IMG/VR virus record: IMGVR_UViG_3300025168_000074
Coordinates: 1-64,000 of that record
From: a virus
Strand: one strand, 5' to 3'
Length of the DNA stretch: 64,000 nucleotides
Shown: piece after piece, positions 4,464 to 23,464 of the stretch
How positions within the stretch are numbered: the stretch's first letter is position 1
Layout of the letters: the number at the start of each line of letters is the position of its first letter
Made by a program: the position numbers and the translations under genes
The notes under the pieces: model-generated
What the model saw: only the letters and a program-made list of their open reading frames with translations
Told to the model about the DNA's origin: nothing
The model's database searches: none

Positions 4464-5155
4464 TACTTTGATGCGGTGGTGTTACCGACAGGATTTAGCC
4501 CAGGCTTCTTCTTCTTTTTATCTCTGGGCTTTAGAGGGCTGGAGTTATTGTCCCTATCGCCATTATCTGAACCTTTAGCTTTTGAGTCGCTGCCTCCGTA
4601 TGCTCCGCCTGCACCTGGCTCGAATGCTTCATACTGCGCTTCCTTCTTTACTGTCTTCTTCTTAGCCATCTTCTTGAAAGTTTTGGCTAGAGTTTTGGCT
4701 TTGCCAGTACAGCCTTTCTTGGTGATAGGGGTACACTTACCTTCTGTACCGCGACGCTCAATATCCTCTTCAGCACCTTGAATCCAGTTATCGCCTTTCT
4801 TCGCTTCATCGTAAGGACCGCCGACTTTTTCGTTACCCGGGTTCTCTGTATTACCTGGTTGGGAGCCGTAACTAGACATGGAACGTCCACCTTTAGTGAT
4901 GGCTGTCTGGGTCTGGTTGGTAGAAAGCACCTTATCGGCATCCTTCAAGAGTTTAGCTTTGCCAACCTTCTTAGCTTTAGCTATTTTAGCTGCGGCTTTA
5001 GTGCCGCCTTTAACCCCTTGCTTAGGATAACCCTTCGAAGCGTTCTCATCAATCTTTACTTTACCACCAAACAATGTGTCTGATACTAAAGGGTATGATT
5101 TTGACTCTGCAGGCTTGGTCATTCGTGATTCTGTAATTGTTCCAACTTTCTTCAT
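4463..5155 (-). CDS. Lys/Gly-rich protein of unknown function (230 aa)
   Basis: Low-complexity basic protein. It has an N-terminal segment with SDTLFGGKVKIDENA, an Ala/Lys-rich stretch (GGTKAAAKIAKAKKVGKAK), a compact motif around GDNWIQGAEEDIERRGTEG and CTPITKKGCTGKAK, and a charged tail ending NPVGNTTASK. The TATATAAAG box 5-6 nt before its ATG fits the near-leaderless pattern seen elsewhere. Together with 3502-3906 and 3939-4463 it forms a group of basic proteins that may be packaged with DNA. Confidence 0.6.
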   Translation of the reverse strand: MKKVGTITESRMTKPAESKSYPLVSDTLFGGKVKIDENASKGYPKQGVKGGTKAAAKIAKAKKVGKAKLLKDADKVLSTNQTQTAITKGGRSMSSYGSQPGNTENPGNEKVGGPYDEAKKGDNWIQGAEEDIERRGTEGKCTPITKKGCTGKAKTLAKTFKKMAKKKTVKKEAQYEAFEPGAGGAYGGSDSKAKGSDNGDRDNNSSPLKPRDKKKKKPGLNPVGNTTASK

Positions 5156-5943: not shown

Positions 5944-6366
5944 TTAACCGAATAGCATTACAGACTGAGCCTCTTTAGCTTTTGGGATAGTTACGCTTAG
6001 TAACCCATCCACATAAACCACCTTAGCTTTCTTAGTGTCATATTGCTCATCTACATTAATAGAAAAATCAACATCTTTTCCGCTTATCCCACGGTGCAGC
6101 ACGCAACGCGTGTCTTCCTCTGCGTTTTTTGAGGCACGTACAGTAAAGGAGTTCTTACCCCCGATAACCTTCACCTCTTTTTCCTTGTAACCCGCAAGGG
6201 CAAACTCAAAGTGTAGTGAGTTTTGGTCTTCCGATAGGTAGCAGTTGCTAACTGGGTATTTCGGCAATCTACAAGCTTCTTTGGCTTGTTGTGGTTGGAA
6301 CTCCTTTTCGAAGCTCCCATGTAGCTCACTGAAGAGCCTATCAAAATGTGTAAAGTAATGATTCAT
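5944..6366 (-). CDS. hsp20: small heat-shock protein Hsp20
   Basis: 140-aa alpha-crystallin-domain chaperone that holds unfolding proteins in the host cytoplasm. The core (about 40-135) shows LHFEFALAGYKEKEVKV and the diagnostic C-terminal strand YVDGLLSVTIPKAKEA. Hsp20 genes are common in T4-like marine phages. A strong Shine-Dalgarno (AGGAGGAAT) precedes the ATG inside the 3' end of the upstream exported-protein gene, which it overlaps by 26 nt. A likely role is stabilising host or phage proteins, perhaps during scaffold-assisted assembly (inference). Confidence 0.9.
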   Translation of the reverse strand: MNHYFTHFDRLFSELHGSFEKEFQPQQAKEACRLPKYPVSNCYLSEDQNSLHFEFALAGYKEKEVKVIGGKNSFTVRASKNAEEDTRCVLHRGISGKDVDFSINVDEQYDTKKAKVVYVDGLLSVTIPKAKEAQSVMLFG

Positions 6367-7973: not shown

Positions 7974-8945
7974 TTAAATATTGTCCGCTACTAGCTTCAT
8001 GTCAGCATCTACCATGGCTGTGACTAAGCCCTCAAACGTATGCCGAGGAGCCCATCCTAAAACTTCTTTAGCTTTAGTATTATCCCCTTTCAAGATATCC
8101 ACCTCAGCTGGTCTATAAAACTTAGGGTCTACTACCACATGTTGTGTTAGGCAGAGTCCTACATGCTTAAATGCTATTTCGCAAAACTCCCTCACTGTAC
8201 GTGTTTCCCCCGTAGAAATTACAAAATCTTCAGGGGTATCCTGTTGTAACATTAACCACATAGCCTCAACGTAATCAGGAGCATACCCCCAATCTCGTTG
8301 GGCGTCGAGATTACCTAACAGTAACGTGTCCTGCAGGTTATGAGAAATCCTAGCGACGGCTTGGGTAATCTTACGTGTAACAAATTCCGTGCCCCTCCGG
8401 GGCGATTCGTGGTTAAACAGAATACCTCCACATGCGTACATACCATAACTTTCCCTGTAGTTTTGAACCATGTAGTGAGCGTAGGTTTTTGCAACCCCGT
8501 AAGGGGAACGGGGGTGAAATGGTGTCGTCTCGGTTTGAGGGGTTTGTCGCACTTTACCAAACATCTCACTAGTAGAGGCTTGGTATACCTTAGCCTTTGG
8601 GTGCATAAGACGTACTGCCTCCAAAACATTTAAAGCTCCTATAGCGTTTACCTGGGAGGTATGAATAGGTTCATCAAATGACGCGTGTACAAAACTTTGC
8701 GCTGCAAGATTGTAAATCTCATCAGGCTTGTACCTCCCTACTATATGCATTAAGCTGGATAAATCCGTAATATCTCCTTCTACCAGCTTGAGCTCGTCGG
8801 ACTCTATATGGGAAATCCTTTGAGTGTTCTCTGAGGAAACTCTTCGAACGAGACCAATAACAGTATACCCCTTGTCCAAAAGAAATTCAGTTAGGTAAGA
8901 ACCGTCCTGTCCGGTTATCCCCGTAATAAATGCAACTCTCCTCAT
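7974..8945 (-). CDS. gmd: GDP-mannose 4,6-dehydratase
   Basis: 323-aa extended short-chain dehydrogenase that converts GDP-D-mannose to GDP-4-keto-6-deoxy-D-mannose, the precursor of GDP-fucose, GDP-rhamnose and perosamine. Visible: NAD(P)-binding [10 protein letters not shown] (residues 9-18), the S-T-S-E catalytic segment (about 124-127), the YGVAK catalytic Tyr149/Lys153 pair, and FNHESPRRG, a hallmark of the GMD family. Length is close to the usual 320-370. The start at 8945 (MRRVAFITG) is preferred over 8969 because it removes the promoter box from the coding sequence. It probably supplies the sugar used by the neighbouring glycosyltransferase. Confidence 0.92.
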
Positions 8946-8946
8946 G

Positions 8947-8957
8947 CTATATAATAG
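8947..8957. promoter_or_regulatory. divergent promoter box CTATATAATAG
   Basis: An 11-mer in the 22-nt gap between gmd (minus) and terminase (plus). On the minus strand it reads CTATTATATAG, 1 nt from the gmd ATG. On the plus strand TATAATAG lies 10-12 nt before ATG 8968. It probably serves both directions. Confidence 0.5.
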
Positions 8958-8967
8958 TGTAACCATC

Positions 8968-10443
8968 ATGAGTCCTGAAGAAATAAAGAAAGAATTTTTG
9001 AGGTGTAAGGAAGACCCAGTCTACTTTATGCGTCATTATATTAAAATTATTCACCCCATACGCGGGAGAGTGAATTTCGATTTATACCGATTTCAAGAAC
9101 GTATTATTAACGAGTTCAAGGAAAACAGATTTAATTTAATGCGTAAGTTCCGTCAGGCGGGCGCCACAACAATTAGCGCTGCGTACGCTCTTTGGTACAT
9201 CACGTTTAATAACGATAAGAATGTTATGGTGGTATCTATTGGTGACCGTGAATCTAGAGATTTTCTAGATAGAGCCGTTAATATGTATGATGATTTACCT
9301 GAATGGTTACGAGCACCGGAGACAGAGCGTAATAAGCACGTTCTTAAACTCTCTACAGGAAGCAAGATAAAATCTCAACCTGCTGGTGCGGGACGTGGAG
9401 AGTCTGTATCTCTCCTCATCGTAGACGAGGCTGCGTTTATTGATAACATGAGAGAGTTTTGGATGGCTATCTACCCAACAATCTCTACAGGTGGTTCTGC
9501 ATGTATCCTTTCTACAGTGAATGGTATGGCTAACCTTTATTACGAGCTATATCGAGACGCTGAGCTGGAGAAGAACGATTTTAACGTAATTGATATTCAT
9601 TGGAGGGAGCACCCTGAATACACTGAGAAGTGGTCGGAGCAGACGAGAAGTAATGTAGGTGAGCGTGCGTGGTTGCAGGAGTACGAAGGACAGTTTCTAG
9701 GCACAGGTGAAACCTTTATTGACGGTGGCACTTTAGACCAAGTTAAAGTAAGCACCACTCACAAATTCACCAAAAAGCATTATAACATGATGCGTATTTT
9801 TGAAGAACCTCAACCCTACCACACCTACCTAATAGCTGCAGATACTTCCTTCGGACGAGACAGGGATTACTCCGCCTTCCATATTATCAACCTGTACAAC
9901 GGAACTCAAGTAGCTGAGTTCTACAGTAACCGTTGTGGGTTGAACGAGTTTGCTCGAATCATGTCTGAAGAAGGGTTGCGCTACAACACCGCGTTTATAT
10001 GCCCAGAACGAAACGGTTTAGGGTTAGCTCTTATAGAGCAATTATTTGAAGTGCATGAATATGAAAATATGTGGTGTGATGATAAAGGTCAGATGGGGTA
10101 CTTGGTAAATAACAAAAATAGAGATATTATGTTAAATACCTTACAAGAAAAATTAAAAACTTCAAAAATAAAAATCAATTCAGAGAGAACTTTTAAAGAG
10201 TTAACTACTTTTATAATAAGTAAGTCAGGAAAAATCAAAGCAGAAGATGGTTTTGCAGATGACCTGGTTATGAGCCTAGCTATTGGTGCTACTATTATGG
10301 AAGACATCGTAGGCAAAAGCCCGGTACCTATAGTTATGGGTGACCTGGACAAACCTTCTAGTAAAGAAAGTATAGAAGGTGGTTTTTCCAGGGGTACATA
10401 CAATAAGAGCCAGGAGTTTGAGGAATACAGAAAATGGATTTAA
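8968..10443 (+). CDS. 17: terminase large subunit gp17
   Basis: 491-aa DNA-packaging motor ATPase and headful nuclease. ATPase: Walker A-like KFRQAGATT (residues 60-68), Walker [11 protein letters not shown] with D153/E154, coupling motif STVNG (about 182-186). Nuclease, RNase H fold: D292 in AADTSF, E347 in PERNG, D431/D432 in [10 protein letters not shown]4 gp17 is 610 aa, so this one is compact. An upstream in-frame ATG (8944) would put the promoter box in the coding sequence, so 8968 is preferred. The 3' end overlaps the portal gene by 10 nt, which couples the two. Confidence 0.95.
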
Positions 10444-15678: not shown

Positions 15679-16611
15679 ATGACTCAACCTAATAAAGAAA
15701 AATCTCTTATCGACCTTGCAAAAGAACATCTAGATAATGTGGGGGCTGACCCTGCACAAGGTGTTAGTGTTCCTGACGCACCTTCAACATCAGCGTCGGA
15801 GAGGGTAGAAATACCTGCAGAAGACCTAAAGTTTAATACTCCGAAAGAGGAACCTAAAGAGGTGATTAAAGACGCGTTTGATGGTACTGTTGCATCTGCT
15901 GTAAGTGACCTTCTTAAAAATATAACGGGAGGTGATGAATGGGTATCCTTAAACCTTCCTTCCCAAGGAAAATCATACCGTGACCACAACGGTACAGTTA
16001 AAATTAAAGCTTTTACGTACCGTGAGGAAAAGAAGCTACGGAGCATTAAAAAAGTAAACCAGGCTAATAATGTGATAAAATCTTTATTTGAGGATTGTGT
16101 ACAGGGGTTAGATTACGACTCAATGACTTTACAGGACAAAAACTTTATTTTATTTAAGTTGCGCGAGATTTCTTACGGCGATAAATATGTAATCTCAGCC
16201 GAGTGTCCAGATTGTTCTGCAGAAAACAACTTAAATCTCCTTATTAGTGAAATTCCGGTTGAGTACGCCGCTGATGATTTCGAAGAGCCGTTGGAAATAA
16301 CTCTCCCAGACAGTGACCAGGTGGTTAAGTACGTTTCCCCCCGGGCAAAAGATGAACCTTATATGGAAGATATGGTAACACTTACAGAAAATCTATGGCG
16401 TTTCGCATTATCAGTAGGGACACATGCGGATAAAAATATTTTACGTCAATTCTTTGAGAAGACCACTGTTAGGGATATTGCCTTTTTCCGTGAAAATCTA
16501 TCAAAAAGCCACTATGGGTTTACGAAAAAGGTTGCTTTTGATTGCGCGAACTGTGGGGAGACCACAGAGACGTTTGTACCGTTTAACGAGTCTTTTTTCT
16601 CCGTGAGCTAG
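15679..16611 (+). CDS. 26: gp26-like baseplate hub assembly protein
   Basis: 310 aa. The N-terminal ~85 residues are disordered and acidic. The conserved part runs from WVSLNLPSQGKSYRDHNGTVKIKAFTYREEKKL (given as the LPSxG...TYREE signature) through LQDKNFILFKLREISYG. It includes two CxxC pairs (CPDC about residues 175-178, CANC about 295-298) that could bind one zinc. This matches the T4_baseplate family (gp26, PF12322). It ends NESFFSVS, and its last codons contain a T TTT TTC slip site. gp26 helps assemble the central baseplate hub. Confidence 0.8.
   Translation: MTQPNKEKSLIDLAKEHLDNVGADPAQGVSVPDAPSTSASERVEIPAEDLKFNTPKEEPKEVIKDAFDGTVASAVSDLLKNITGGDEWVSLNLPSQGKSYRDHNGTVKIKAFTYREEKKLRSIKKVNQANNVIKSLFEDCVQGLDYDSMTLQDKNFILFKLREISYGDKYVISAECPDCSAENNLNLLISEIPVEYAADDFEEPLEITLPDSDQVVKYVSPRAKDEPYMEDMVTLTENLWRFALSVGTHADKNILRQFFEKTTVRDIAFFRENLSKSHYGFTKKVAFDCANCGETTETFVPFNESFFSVS
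16593..16599 (+). promoter_or_regulatory. -1 ribosomal frameshift heptamer T TTT TTC
   Basis: In the gp26 frame the codons are TCT TTT TTC, so the heptamer is in the correct phase for X XXY YYZ tandem slippage. It is 7 nt upstream of a stem-loop and four codons before the gp26 stop (TAG 16609-16611). Confidence 0.65.
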
Positions 16612-16787
16612 TTGTTCGAGGGGAGAACCTAGCGTCTGAAGTATACTCCTTAATAAAACATGCCAACTTTACCCTTCATGATATGTATCTTATGACGGGG
16701 GAGGAGAGGGGTGAGTTTATGAATTTATTGGTTGAGGAAAGCAATCGAGAGAAAGAAGCAATTGACTCTGCTAGGTCCTCTAAATAA
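16599..16787 (+). CDS. gp51-like segment expressed by -1 frameshift from gp26
   Basis: After slippage the -1 frame reads 62 codons, LRELVVRGENLASEV...SLIKHANFTLHDMYL...EERGEFMNLLVEESNREKEA...SSK, then TAA at 16785. The SLIKHANFTLHDMY / REKEAI pattern resembles T4 gp51, the baseplate hub assembly factor encoded next to gene 26. The frame is open throughout, but its first ATG (16686-16688) is downstream of that conserved start, so independent initiation would lose the conserved part. The product would be a ~371-aa gp26-gp51 fusion made alongside gp26. Gene identity is moderate; the frameshift is inferred. Confidence 0.6.
   Translation, partial: LRELVVRGENLASEVYSLIKHANFTLHDMYLMTGEERGEFMNLLVEESNREKEAIDSARSSK
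16607..16633 (+). promoter_or_regulatory. stem-loop downstream of slip site
   Basis: GCTAG + TT bulge + GTTC, loop GAGGGGA, then GAAC + CTAGC: nine base pairs with one 2-nt bulge. It begins 7 nt after the heptamer, the usual distance for a frameshift stimulator. The gp26 stop codon is inside the 5' arm. Confidence 0.6.
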
Positions 16788-16794
16788 ATAAGAC

Positions 16795-17781
16795 ATGACT
16801 ACTTTCAACGATATCACTGTAATCAACAGAGCAAACCGCCCTTCTCCTATCAGCCCATGTAAACTAGATTTTATATGGATTAAGGATGGTAGTTACCAGA
16901 ATCCTTTTCAGGTATGCTCAGTACATATTTTCCCAAATACACAGTTTGGGTCTCCTAACCCTTACGTCAACCTAACCGCAGGGAATGCCAGCTATGGTTT
17001 GGTTAGCTCTACCGCCACGGAATACATTTTCCGTAACTATAAGCGTAATGATGTTGGTGACCGAATTGGGTTTGATGCTAATGTTAGTGCGTGTGCAGAA
17101 GAACCCGATTATGTTGGCGGAAATTCCGCTAGTGCTATTTTTAATACTAGCCCAGGTAATTTTTCCGTAATTCTACAGCCAGAGGCAGATTACTTTCCTA
17201 CTACAGCGCCTGCTAATGCTTGGTTACCTGTGTCGAGTAACACCGCGTCCGCGACAGGAGATTATTTAGATATTTGGACACTAGTGGACGTTGAGGGTTC
17301 TCGCGCACAGATTTACGTCAACTCTTTTAAATTAAATTCTAACTCTAACGTGGCACTAACCCAACCTTTGTTGGTAACCCCGACAAACAAACTGATTCAA
17401 CGTTACGTAGAGGTAGGGAGCAAGGAAAAGCTTCGCGTTAAAACCGAATTGGTTGTAGATAATGAGCCTATTACGAACGACCTTCGCAACCTGCTAGAAA
17501 CCGGTTCACTTCTTTCTAAACCACAGATGCGAATCGTTAAGCTGAATGAGAGCCCTGAATTAACTAGCAGGGTAGTGGTTCAGGAATTCGGGGACACTTC
17601 GGGTAGTATACAACTAGACTCACAAAACCTAATAAGCTACCTTTGGAATACCGAGACGATTGTCCCGAAATATGAAGATGATATTTTAGGTGGTTCTAGA
17701 GGAGTGTACGAAATCACTGTAAAATATGATATTTTAACAGAGAGTTTTTACAGCCCTAAGTTTAAGTTAATAGTGAGGTAG
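16795..17781 (+). CDS. putative tail/baseplate structural protein (328 aa)
   Basis: Beta-rich protein, N-terminus MTTFNDITVINRANRPSPIS, C-terminus VYEITVKYDILTESFYSP. No membrane segment and no family recognised. It lies 7 nt after the end of the frameshift reading frame and within the baseplate operon order, so it is probably a hub or wedge component. A CTAAATAA-type box overlaps the preceding stop (16779-16786). It overlaps the convergent primase gene by 20 nt. Confidence 0.6.
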   Translation: MTTFNDITVINRANRPSPISPCKLDFIWIKDGSYQNPFQVCSVHIFPNTQFGSPNPYVNLTAGNASYGLVSSTATEYIFRNYKRNDVGDRIGFDANVSACAEEPDYVGGNSASAIFNTSPGNFSVILQPEADYFPTTAPANAWLPVSSNTASATGDYLDIWTLVDVEGSRAQIYVNSFKLNSNSNVALTQPLLVTPTNKLIQRYVEVGSKEKLRVKTELVVDNEPITNDLRNLLETGSLLSKPQMRIVKLNESPELTSRVVVQEFGDTSGSIQLDSQNLISYLWNTETIVPKYEDDILGGSRGVYEITVKYDILTESFYSPKFKLIVR

Positions 17782-20282: not shown

Positions 20283-22004
20283 ATGGCTGCCGAATCAGAA
20301 TTACCCGAACTAATCTCCTCCATCAAATCGTTGGCGGAAGGGTTAGCAGCTGATAGAGCCAAAAAAACAGACGCAGAAGATGCAAAAACTTCTTCAAAAA
20401 CCCTCGCTACTAATTTAGCTAAAAACTCCGTAGCTGTGTTAGGGTTGTCGCAAGGTCTCACCTCGATGAAAGGCTTCTTTTCTCAAGCAGCAAGAGACAA
20501 CACTAAGGTTGTTGGTCAACTGGCGAAGTTTACTACAGCATCTACCACTACAAGCAAACAGTTATTAGCGTCTCTAGACACCGGTTACACTACCATGCAA
20601 GAAGGGTTGGCAACTCAAGGGGAGTTGATTAATATGGGTATGGCTGACATGTCAAAAGGGAATAAAGAATCCTTTATTGCTATGAAGGCTTTAGGGGTTA
20701 ATCTCGCTGGAGTAACATCCATTACCCGATTCAATCAGGAAGCATTAGGCATAAGTGCTGACGCATCTACCGAGTTATCCAAGAGCCTTATTGAGACCGC
20801 GATAAAGAACGGTACCAGTATGGAAGCCTTGGTTAGCGCCGTTGAATCCATGAGAGGAGCTTTAATAAAGACTTCTGTCGAATTGGGACCTGAGATGTCC
20901 ATGAAAGTGCAGAATGTTGTGGCTCGTATGACCCAAAACAATTCTGATTTAGCGGGAGCGGCAGCCAACTTTGTCACAAGCCTCGTTTCAGGAGAAGAAG
21001 GCTTCTTCAAAGCAGCTAAACTAGGAATAATGTTCAACAGAGGTGATTCGGAAGACCAGTTAGTTGCCAAAATAGAAGAGGCAGCCCGTCGAATGAATCA
21101 GATGAGCGCAGGTGCCGAAGGCGGTGTTGCGTTCCAGAGATTTGAAGATGCGTTTGGTATATCAAGAGAAAACTTTCTGGTTGCCAAGAAACTAGGTACT
21201 AATATAGAGCGGATGAGAAGGGCTGATACTAAAAGTGCTACTGAACAGCTTAAACAAATGGACGTAGGCAGGCAGATAGAAGTTAATTCCTTTATGCTGC
21301 AGTCTAAAGGAGTTGATTTTATGCAGGGAGTAGCCCAGGCTACCGCACCTCTACAGATGTTCGTACCTTTAGCACTAACCGCTTTAGGAACTATCGCCTC
21401 AATGACTACCATGATGGCGCTTAAAGGTACTGGCGCAAATCCGACAAGTATTCTGGGTTCGCTTAAAGCTAAAACAGGACTGCTGCCTTGGGCTGCTGGG
21501 TTAGCTGGACTCCTGTCTACTGCTAAAGATATGGACGATGTTATTAATGGTTCACGTAAAAAGGAAGATATGGGTGGAATCGGCGGAGGTGTTGTCGGGG
21601 GGACTATTGGATTTGCCTTGGGCGGTCCGATTGGTATGGGTATAGGCGCGATGCTTGGTAATGTTGTAGGTGGATACATAGGACATGCGTCTGATGAGAA
21701 CACATCACACGCTACAAGAACCAACGAGCTTCTTAAGGAGATGCACGGTCAAGACGGAAAGACGCAAGAAGATACAGAACAGATTCGTCGAATCCAGCAA
21801 GACCAAGAGCGTCGAGCTAGAACCTTGTCAAACCCACAAATATCTATTCTTACTACTATAAACGATACCCTTGTTAGGAACCTAGCGGTACTAGAAAGAA
21901 CCGCTGGTCAGACACGCCGTCAAACGGAACTTATCGAAGATTCAAAATTCGACAACGCTACTATGAAAGCTCCTATGCTGAGTAGGGCTATAGGTGGGAC
22001 TTAA
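20283..22004 (+). CDS. putative tail tape-measure protein (gp29-like)
   Basis: 573 aa, close to T4 gp29 (590 aa). The N-terminal half is helical and Ala/Ser/Thr-rich (SFIAMKALGVNLAGVTSI). Hydrophobic segments lie at about 355-375 and 395-410, and a Gly-zipper stretch (GGIGGGVVGGTIGFALGG...GNVVGGYIG) at about 435-465 is typical of tape-measure proteins that reach the membrane during injection. Position between gp26/gp51 and gp48 matches the T4 hub-tube order. Function is inferred from composition and context, not motif. Confidence 0.55.
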   Translation: MAAESELPELISSIKSLAEGLAADRAKKTDAEDAKTSSKTLATNLAKNSVAVLGLSQGLTSMKGFFSQAARDNTKVVGQLAKFTTASTTTSKQLLASLDTGYTTMQEGLATQGELINMGMADMSKGNKESFIAMKALGVNLAGVTSITRFNQEALGISADASTELSKSLIETAIKNGTSMEALVSAVESMRGALIKTSVELGPEMSMKVQNVVARMTQNNSDLAGAAANFVTSLVSGEEGFFKAAKLGIMFNRGDSEDQLVAKIEEAARRMNQMSAGAEGGVAFQRFEDAFGISRENFLVAKKLGTNIERMRRADTKSATEQLKQMDVGRQIEVNSFMLQSKGVDFMQGVAQATAPLQMFVPLALTALGTIASMTTMMALKGTGANPTSILGSLKAKTGLLPWAAGLAGLLSTAKDMDDVINGSRKKEDMGGIGGGVVGGTIGFALGGPIGMGIGAMLGNVVGGYIGHASDENTSHATRTNELLKEMHGQDGKTQEDTEQIRRIQQDQERRARTLSNPQISILTTINDTLVRNLAVLERTAGQTRRQTELIEDSKFDNATMKAPMLSRAIGGT

Positions 22005-23164: not shown

Positions 23165-23464
23165 ATGGCATTTTCTAACGACCGCGCAAGTATTTTCCCT
23201 GGACGAGTTATTTCTCATCGAGGAAAGACTATAACAGATATAGGAAGTTCTCCTTCTTATCTTTCTTTTCTAGAACAACAAAGCACAGCAACTAATTATA
23301 GAGTTGCTATTGTTCCTAATGATATGGAAGGTAGACCGGATTTGCTGTCCTACGCCGCCTATGGCACAGAGCTAATGTGGTGGTTAATCGTCGAAGCTAA
23401 TTCAATTTACGACTACGAAGAAGATTTGAAAGCTGGCACTCAAATAATGATACCCCAACTCTAG
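23165..23464 (+). CDS. 53: gp53-like baseplate wedge protein with LysM-like fold
   Basis: 99 aa. The segment RPDLLSYAAYGTELMWWLIVEAN...DYEEDLKAGTQIMIPQL is the core of T4 gp53 and of LysM-like baseplate proteins (P2 gpX type). T4 gp53 is 196 aa, so this is a minimal version. It lies 2 nt after the gp48-like gene and 3 nt before the hub gene, all in one operon. It should lock wedge proteins gp6/gp25 around the hub. Confidence 0.8.
   Translation: MAFSNDRASIFPGRVISHRGKTITDIGSSPSYLSFLEQQSTATNYRVAIVPNDMEGRPDLLSYAAYGTELMWWLIVEANSIYDYEEDLKAGTQIMIPQL

Follow-up and report, generated by a model that had tools for sequence, protein, structure and literature searches.

The DNA analysed here, referred to as the window, comprises the first 64,000 nucleotides of a 68-kb IMG/VR record of a marine virus (IMGVR_UViG_3300025168_000074). 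On its plus strand, which carries the whole locus described below, an open reading frame at 15679–16611 encodes a gp26-like protein of 310 residues, denoted TAC-N as the putative short form of a tail assembly chaperone (TAC). Near its end the sequence reads ...AAC GAG TCT TTT TTC TCC GTG AGC TAG and contains, in the phase of the gp26-like frame, the slippery heptamer T TTT TTC (16593–16599), the TTC of which lies four codons before the stop codon TAG at 16609–16611. A 7-nt spacer of the sequence TCCGTGA (16600–16606) separates the heptamer from a bulged stem-loop at 16607–16633. This stem consists of 5+4 bp, GCTAG-TT-GTTC paired with GAAC-CTAGC, and carries the stop codon of the unshifted frame within its 5′ arm. 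The −1 frame (16599–16787) remains open for 62 codons up to a TAA at 16785–16787 and encodes a domain denoted TAC-C, with the sequence LRELVVRGENLASEVYSLIKHANFTLHDMYLMTGEERGEFMNLLVEESNREKEAIDSARSSK. It ends 7 nt ahead of the next gene (16795–17781, with its ATG at 16795), which encodes a protein of 328 residues without a confident family assignment. The first ATG of the −1 frame is codon 29, within the conserved domain, and no ATG, GTG or TTG was found upstream of it. The initial annotation had described these elements, namely the heptamer and its phase, the spacer, the 9-bp bulged stem with the stop codon in its arm, the extent of the −1 frame and the position of its first ATG well inside a gp51-like segment, and each of them was confirmed on direct reading. 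An in-phase T TTT TTC occurs only once, at this locus, among the 20,195 codons of the 51 window ORFs counted as genes.

The gp26-like ORF is a member of the T4_baseplate family PF12322 (68.6 bits against a cut-off of 24.5; E = 8.4e-19) and also matches PHROG150, baseplate hub (E = 4e-20). It is the sole PF12322 match in the whole record and therefore, unlike in T4, there is no second, long copy. Two CxxC pairs and a near-terminal Phe-Phe are conserved in the protein, the Phe-Phe being the slip site. An AlphaFold2 model of TAC-N built from 78 relatives reached a mean pLDDT of 88 and matched T4-type baseplate hub proteins in BFVD, including that of SP-15 with an E-value of 2.5e-19; wherever a significant BFVD match has a functional name, it is that of a baseplate hub or baseplate protein. 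A Foldseek comparison of the model with the PDB returned no solved structure at E ≤ 0.001 and no TAC among the 50 matches listed, and a fold homologous to the solved lambda/HK97-type TACs (such as HK97 gp13, 2OB9) was not found for the model.

An alignment-based scan of IMG/VR yielded 80 loci of the same clade. Two of these end before the stop codon; the other 78, which have an intact 3′ end, and the window make up the 79 loci compared here. All 79 contain an in-phase T TTT TTC or T TTT TTT, with a run of six T in most members and seven in several, and in all of them the −1 frame stays open for 52–64 codons beyond the gp26-like stop. A start codon near the gp26 stop is absent in most members, as it is in the window. 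The initial annotation had proposed an alignment across relatives as a check, and both the phase of the heptamer and the start-less −1 frame proved to be kept; in every relative of the clade the slip site was present and the −1 frame was free of early stops. All 59 of 59 distinct tails of the clade use TTT for the first Phe of the slip site, and the next-to-last codon, where it encodes Val, is GTG in 46 of 46. Past the stop codon, pN/pS was 0.27 in the −1 frame compared with 1.07 in frame 0 and 1.50 in the +1 frame, ratios that are descriptive because they derive from pooled pairwise counts and the pairs are not independent. The changes in this region fall mostly on third positions of −1 frame codons, and the conserved E-L of TAC-C begins directly past the slip, ahead of any start codon. 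Judged by these substitution patterns, the −1 frame is under purifying selection. The arrangement of the slip site is not a product of chance, and the comparative evidence makes a programmed −1 frameshift, which would yield TAC-N and a fusion, TAC-NC, nearly certain. The proposal that one gene gives both the short gp26-like product and an extended fusion is thereby strongly supported.

The stem-loop was compared among 22 close relatives, in whose alignment the stem starts at the same column. An eight-pair model of the stem was paired to 85.8%, compared with 26–40% for slid versions of the model, and five pairs showed changes on both sides. These compensating changes comprise GC to AU at the base of the stem and AU, UA and CG exchanges further in; the pairing reflects in part the −1 frame coding of E-L and L-A, but the compensating changes exceed what this coding accounts for. 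RNAalifold independently predicted a 5-bp stem core in the window's group. The window's own stem sequence was no more stable than its shuffles (z = −0.6), and the support for the stem is therefore comparative. In a second marine group RNAalifold gave no consensus stem, several members showing long complementary arms by eye, and the stem is accordingly claimed for the window's group only. In that group, the position of the covarying structure 7 nt past the slip site falls within the 5–9 nt downstream range of stimulatory RNA structures, and the bulged stem is a probable frameshift stimulator.

The −1 segment was most often matched by PHROG634, annotated as baseplate hub assembly catalyst (16 of 27 members, best E = 3.6e-4). 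Profile–profile comparison with hhalign aligned it with residues 210–253 of T4 gp51 (probability 93.6, P = 2e-7), and with probabilities of 96 each with the C-domain of cyanophage-type and other T4-like phages and with the corresponding domain of the +1 clade described below. An HMM of the marine C-domain run against all six-frame ORFs of T4 placed gp51 at rank 7 with a non-significant E-value of 1, and a Pfam search with the C-domain gave no match. The model of TAC-C is helical, with a pLDDT of 86. The initial annotation had called the −1 segment gp51-like. This designation holds for the C-terminal ∼45–60 residues of T4 gp51, the only part that the segment resembles, and the long form thus carries a gp51-type C-terminal domain; it does not extend to gp51 itself. 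T4 gp51 is a PF12322 protein in its own right (E = 3.9e-52) to which the C-domain is appended, and T4 gp26 and gp51 are paralogues, both belonging to PF12322. Since gp51 already has its own gp26-like domain, the counterpart of gp51 would be the whole frameshift fusion, and, on sequence grounds, the short product would correspond to T4 gp26. The adjacency of genes 26 and 51 in T4, to which the initial annotation had also pointed, is real, but the two genes are divergent, on opposite strands, so that T4 cannot join them and their adjacency does not prefigure a fusion. Two divergent genes encoding gp26 and a long gp51 are found in T4, phiP4-3, phiAS4 and Acj9.

The same −1 design is present in isolated T4-like phages. 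An in-phase slip site followed by the C-domain in the −1 frame was seen in Vibrio VmeM-32, Rhizobium LG08 and RL38J1, Prochlorococcus P-SSM5, Aeromonas Aeh1, Cronobacter S13, Pseudomonas pf16, Agrobacterium Atu_ph04, Synechococcus S-RSM4 and Vibrio K575, and also in the huge phage LR756511. Around 4700–4780 of its locus piece, the unshifted frame of LR756511 is ∼27 codons longer and overlaps the −1 frame in a TAATG; a frameshift and an overlap route are both possible in this phage. In cyanophage-type contigs, T TTT TTC lies ten bases before the stop in 78 of 78. Phage annotations often omit the C-domain or give it in shortened form: it is unannotated in Aeh1 (after 1217 of the locus piece) and S13 (after 1223), and the S-RSM4 annotation starts it internally (1265–1399 of the locus piece). 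The omission or shortening of the gp51-type C-domain in these public annotations is apparently due to the lack of an early start codon, and the domain would be reached via a slip at the end of gp26. An IMG/VR search with a Vibrio query found no kin. One INPHARED record labels its gp26 homologue 'tape measure protein assembly chaperone'.

We propose that the gene at 15679–16787 gives rise to two products from one start codon. The majority of ribosomes would stop at the TAG at 16609 and release the 310-residue TAC-N. We infer that a minority would move one base back on T TTT TTC, with the help of the stem that starts 7 nt further on, and append the 62 residues of TAC-C to yield a TAC-NC of about 370 residues. 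The two proteins probably act as a pair of tail assembly chaperones, in which TAC-N would coat the tape measure protein and TAC-NC would couple the tape measure protein to hub or tube assembly. As the TAC-N model matched no solved structure, the likely chaperone function is argued from position, design, T4 genetics and the literature rather than from the fold. Listeria LIS04 has its annotated tape measure gene immediately downstream of the gp26-like gene with the frameshifted tail. In the window, a 573-residue ORF with a glycine-zipper stretch (20283–22004), proposed from its position and size, is the candidate tape measure protein and presumed client of the chaperone; its only family matches are weak Gly-zipper ones. 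Its location suits a tape measure gene; it lies two genes upstream of the baseplate wedge gene at 23165 and 3.5 kb downstream of the chaperone locus, with other genes between. We are highly confident of this explanation as a whole, with two products, a −1 slip and a gp26/gp51-like pair.

The −1 ORF might instead be a separate small gene that is translated by termination–reinitiation past the gp26 stop, as annotated for the gp51 of several cyanophages and rhizophages. Cyanophage-type loci do have an ATG 2 nt past the stop, so that reinitiation could serve in these phages, and Cygsa01 and Vibrio D503, two T4-like phages which lack a slip heptamer, have an initiation codon that coincides with or immediately follows the gp26 stop, in regions 2072–2982 and 483–1223 of their locus pieces; this suggests that these two have switched to reinitiation. 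The window offers no such start: its first possible initiation codon lies 29 codons in, inside the conserved domain, most clade members likewise have none near the stop, and Aeh1 and S13 also lack an early one. Conservation moreover reaches right up to the slip codons, and reinitiation would leave the invariant in-phase T TTT TTY unexplained; we regard it as unlikely for this locus.

The homopolymeric T run, present in all clade members and seven T long in several, would also be compatible with slippage of the RNA polymerase, giving mRNAs of differing length instead of a ribosomal slip. Transcript slippage usually needs longer runs, whereas most members have only six T and part of the +1 clade has the run interrupted as TTC TTT; the strict codon phase and the covarying stem at a fixed spacing are features of ribosomal slippage, which makes the polymerase route very improbable. 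Homopolymers are generically error-prone in sequencing, and the frame break might be such an error, or a decayed gene, in what is truly one frame. That explanation is already refuted by the recurrence of the same break in the same phase in 79 of 79 clade contigs and in cultured phages that different groups sequenced, and by the purifying selection on the −1 frame.

In phage lambda, gpG and gpGT are chaperones produced by a −1 frameshift (Levin 1993; Xu 2004; reviewed in PMC5009743, 2016). The design at the window locus is alike in that a short protein and an extended form would be made from one gene by a −1 slip near its 3′ end. The differences are that we found neither a sequence relation to the lambda proteins nor a Foldseek match of TAC-N to solved structures, and that the locus is separated from the candidate tape measure gene by other genes. 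The tail assembly chaperones that Vladimirov and colleagues described in T4-like phages are reportedly gp26 and gp51. Papers citing that work (Vladimirov, Gautam and Davidson 2022, Virology 566:9-15), which identified T4-like tail assembly chaperones, report separate short and long copies in some T4-like phages (PMC10885494) and, for the TAC-N genes of T4-like phages, −1 slip signals of the polyT type (PMC12846349). A short and a long form and a polyT −1 slip signal are likewise what the window shares with those chaperones. Judging by these citing papers, the connection of T4-type hub chaperones to the G/GT paradigm, which the initial annotation had put forward, appears to have been made already. 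The literature counts T4 gp26 and gp51 among the hub assembly chaperones, gp51 being needed for assembly yet absent from the particle (PMC3004832). They belong to the same family as the proteins described here (PF12322/PHROG150, and PHROG634 for the C-domain) and differ in being encoded by two separate divergent genes, whereas in the window phage one gene would supply both forms. The TAC of the Vandenendeviridae/Andersonviridae (phage Adele, PMC12846349) resembles the present case as a myophage polyT −1 slip with a C-domain usually missed by annotators; it differs in its slip motif, GTTTTT, and its proteins are not shown to be PF12322 members. Phage 0305phi8-36 (PMC2147016) resembles T4 in having two genes, gp143 and gp144, with a domain common to both and no frameshift, but these were assigned to the lambda G-like helical type.

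In a sister clade the C-domain is in the +1 frame past the same Phe-Phe (or Leu-Phe). This was observed in Bacillus SP-15, Listeria LIS04, Streptococcus GXN1 and an Erysipelotrichaceae contig, and in the IMG/VR relatives of the SP-15-like clade with an intact end; a scan of the genome collection gave a single +1 locus. The slip region of this clade is mostly TTY TTT CGT CC, with TTT TTT CAC in SP-15, and a peptidyl-tRNA on TTT can re-pair with TTC upon a +1 slip. Some five members have an A after the second Phe codon (TTY AAT CCC AGT, or TTT AGT ACC CGA) and may slip at the downstream proline or threonine codons instead. A −2 slip seems an unlikely alternative here, since it would leave the P-site codon unpaired, in contrast to a move from TTT_C to TTC, which allows re-pairing. 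The +1 C-domain is unannotated in LIS04 and GXN1, and the SP-15 annotation has only a late fragment of it. No description of the +1 clade was found in the papers searched, which covered few subscription journals.

The Phe-Phe codon pair, often as the same seven bases TTTTTTC, is common to the −1 and +1 clades. In a tree of the N-domain the +1 clade forms one group (95/93) beside the marine −1 clade, and gp26 and gp51 of the Straboviridae group together (93/90) among −1 phages (100/100). Most simply, the −1 frameshift is ancestral, changed direction once and was replaced once by a gene duplication, a provisional reading because the root of the tree is not fixed and several branches are long. 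We consider it probable that one chaperone gene switched its recoding direction, by a one-base change of phase from −1 (NNT TTT TTC) to +1 (TTT TTT CGT), and that Straboviridae near T4 swapped the frameshift for a duplication. One review calls the G–T frameshift a conserved feature of long-tailed phages 'except T4' (PMC5009743); T4 would have looked like an exception because its frameshift was replaced by gene duplication, with gp26 as the short and gp51 as the long form. T4 gp26 and gp51 fall inside a family whose other branches keep both forms in one frameshifted gene, which suggests that the two-gene state of T4 is derived, and the retention of the slip in every close relative examined helps explain that T4 does not need it. 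Other tailed viruses are well known to use −1 frameshifting; what is freshest among the present observations is the −1/+1 switch. The family-wide comparison makes both this switch and the exceptional status of T4 directly testable, and a natural series of −1, +1, possible reinitiation and duplication within one family is useful for studying the evolution of recoding signals.

Elsewhere in the window, two host-like accessory genes were recognized by the appearance of their sequence: a predicted small heat-shock (Hsp20-like) protein at 5944–6366 and a predicted nucleotide-sugar dehydratase (GDP-mannose 4,6-dehydratase-like) at 7974–8969.
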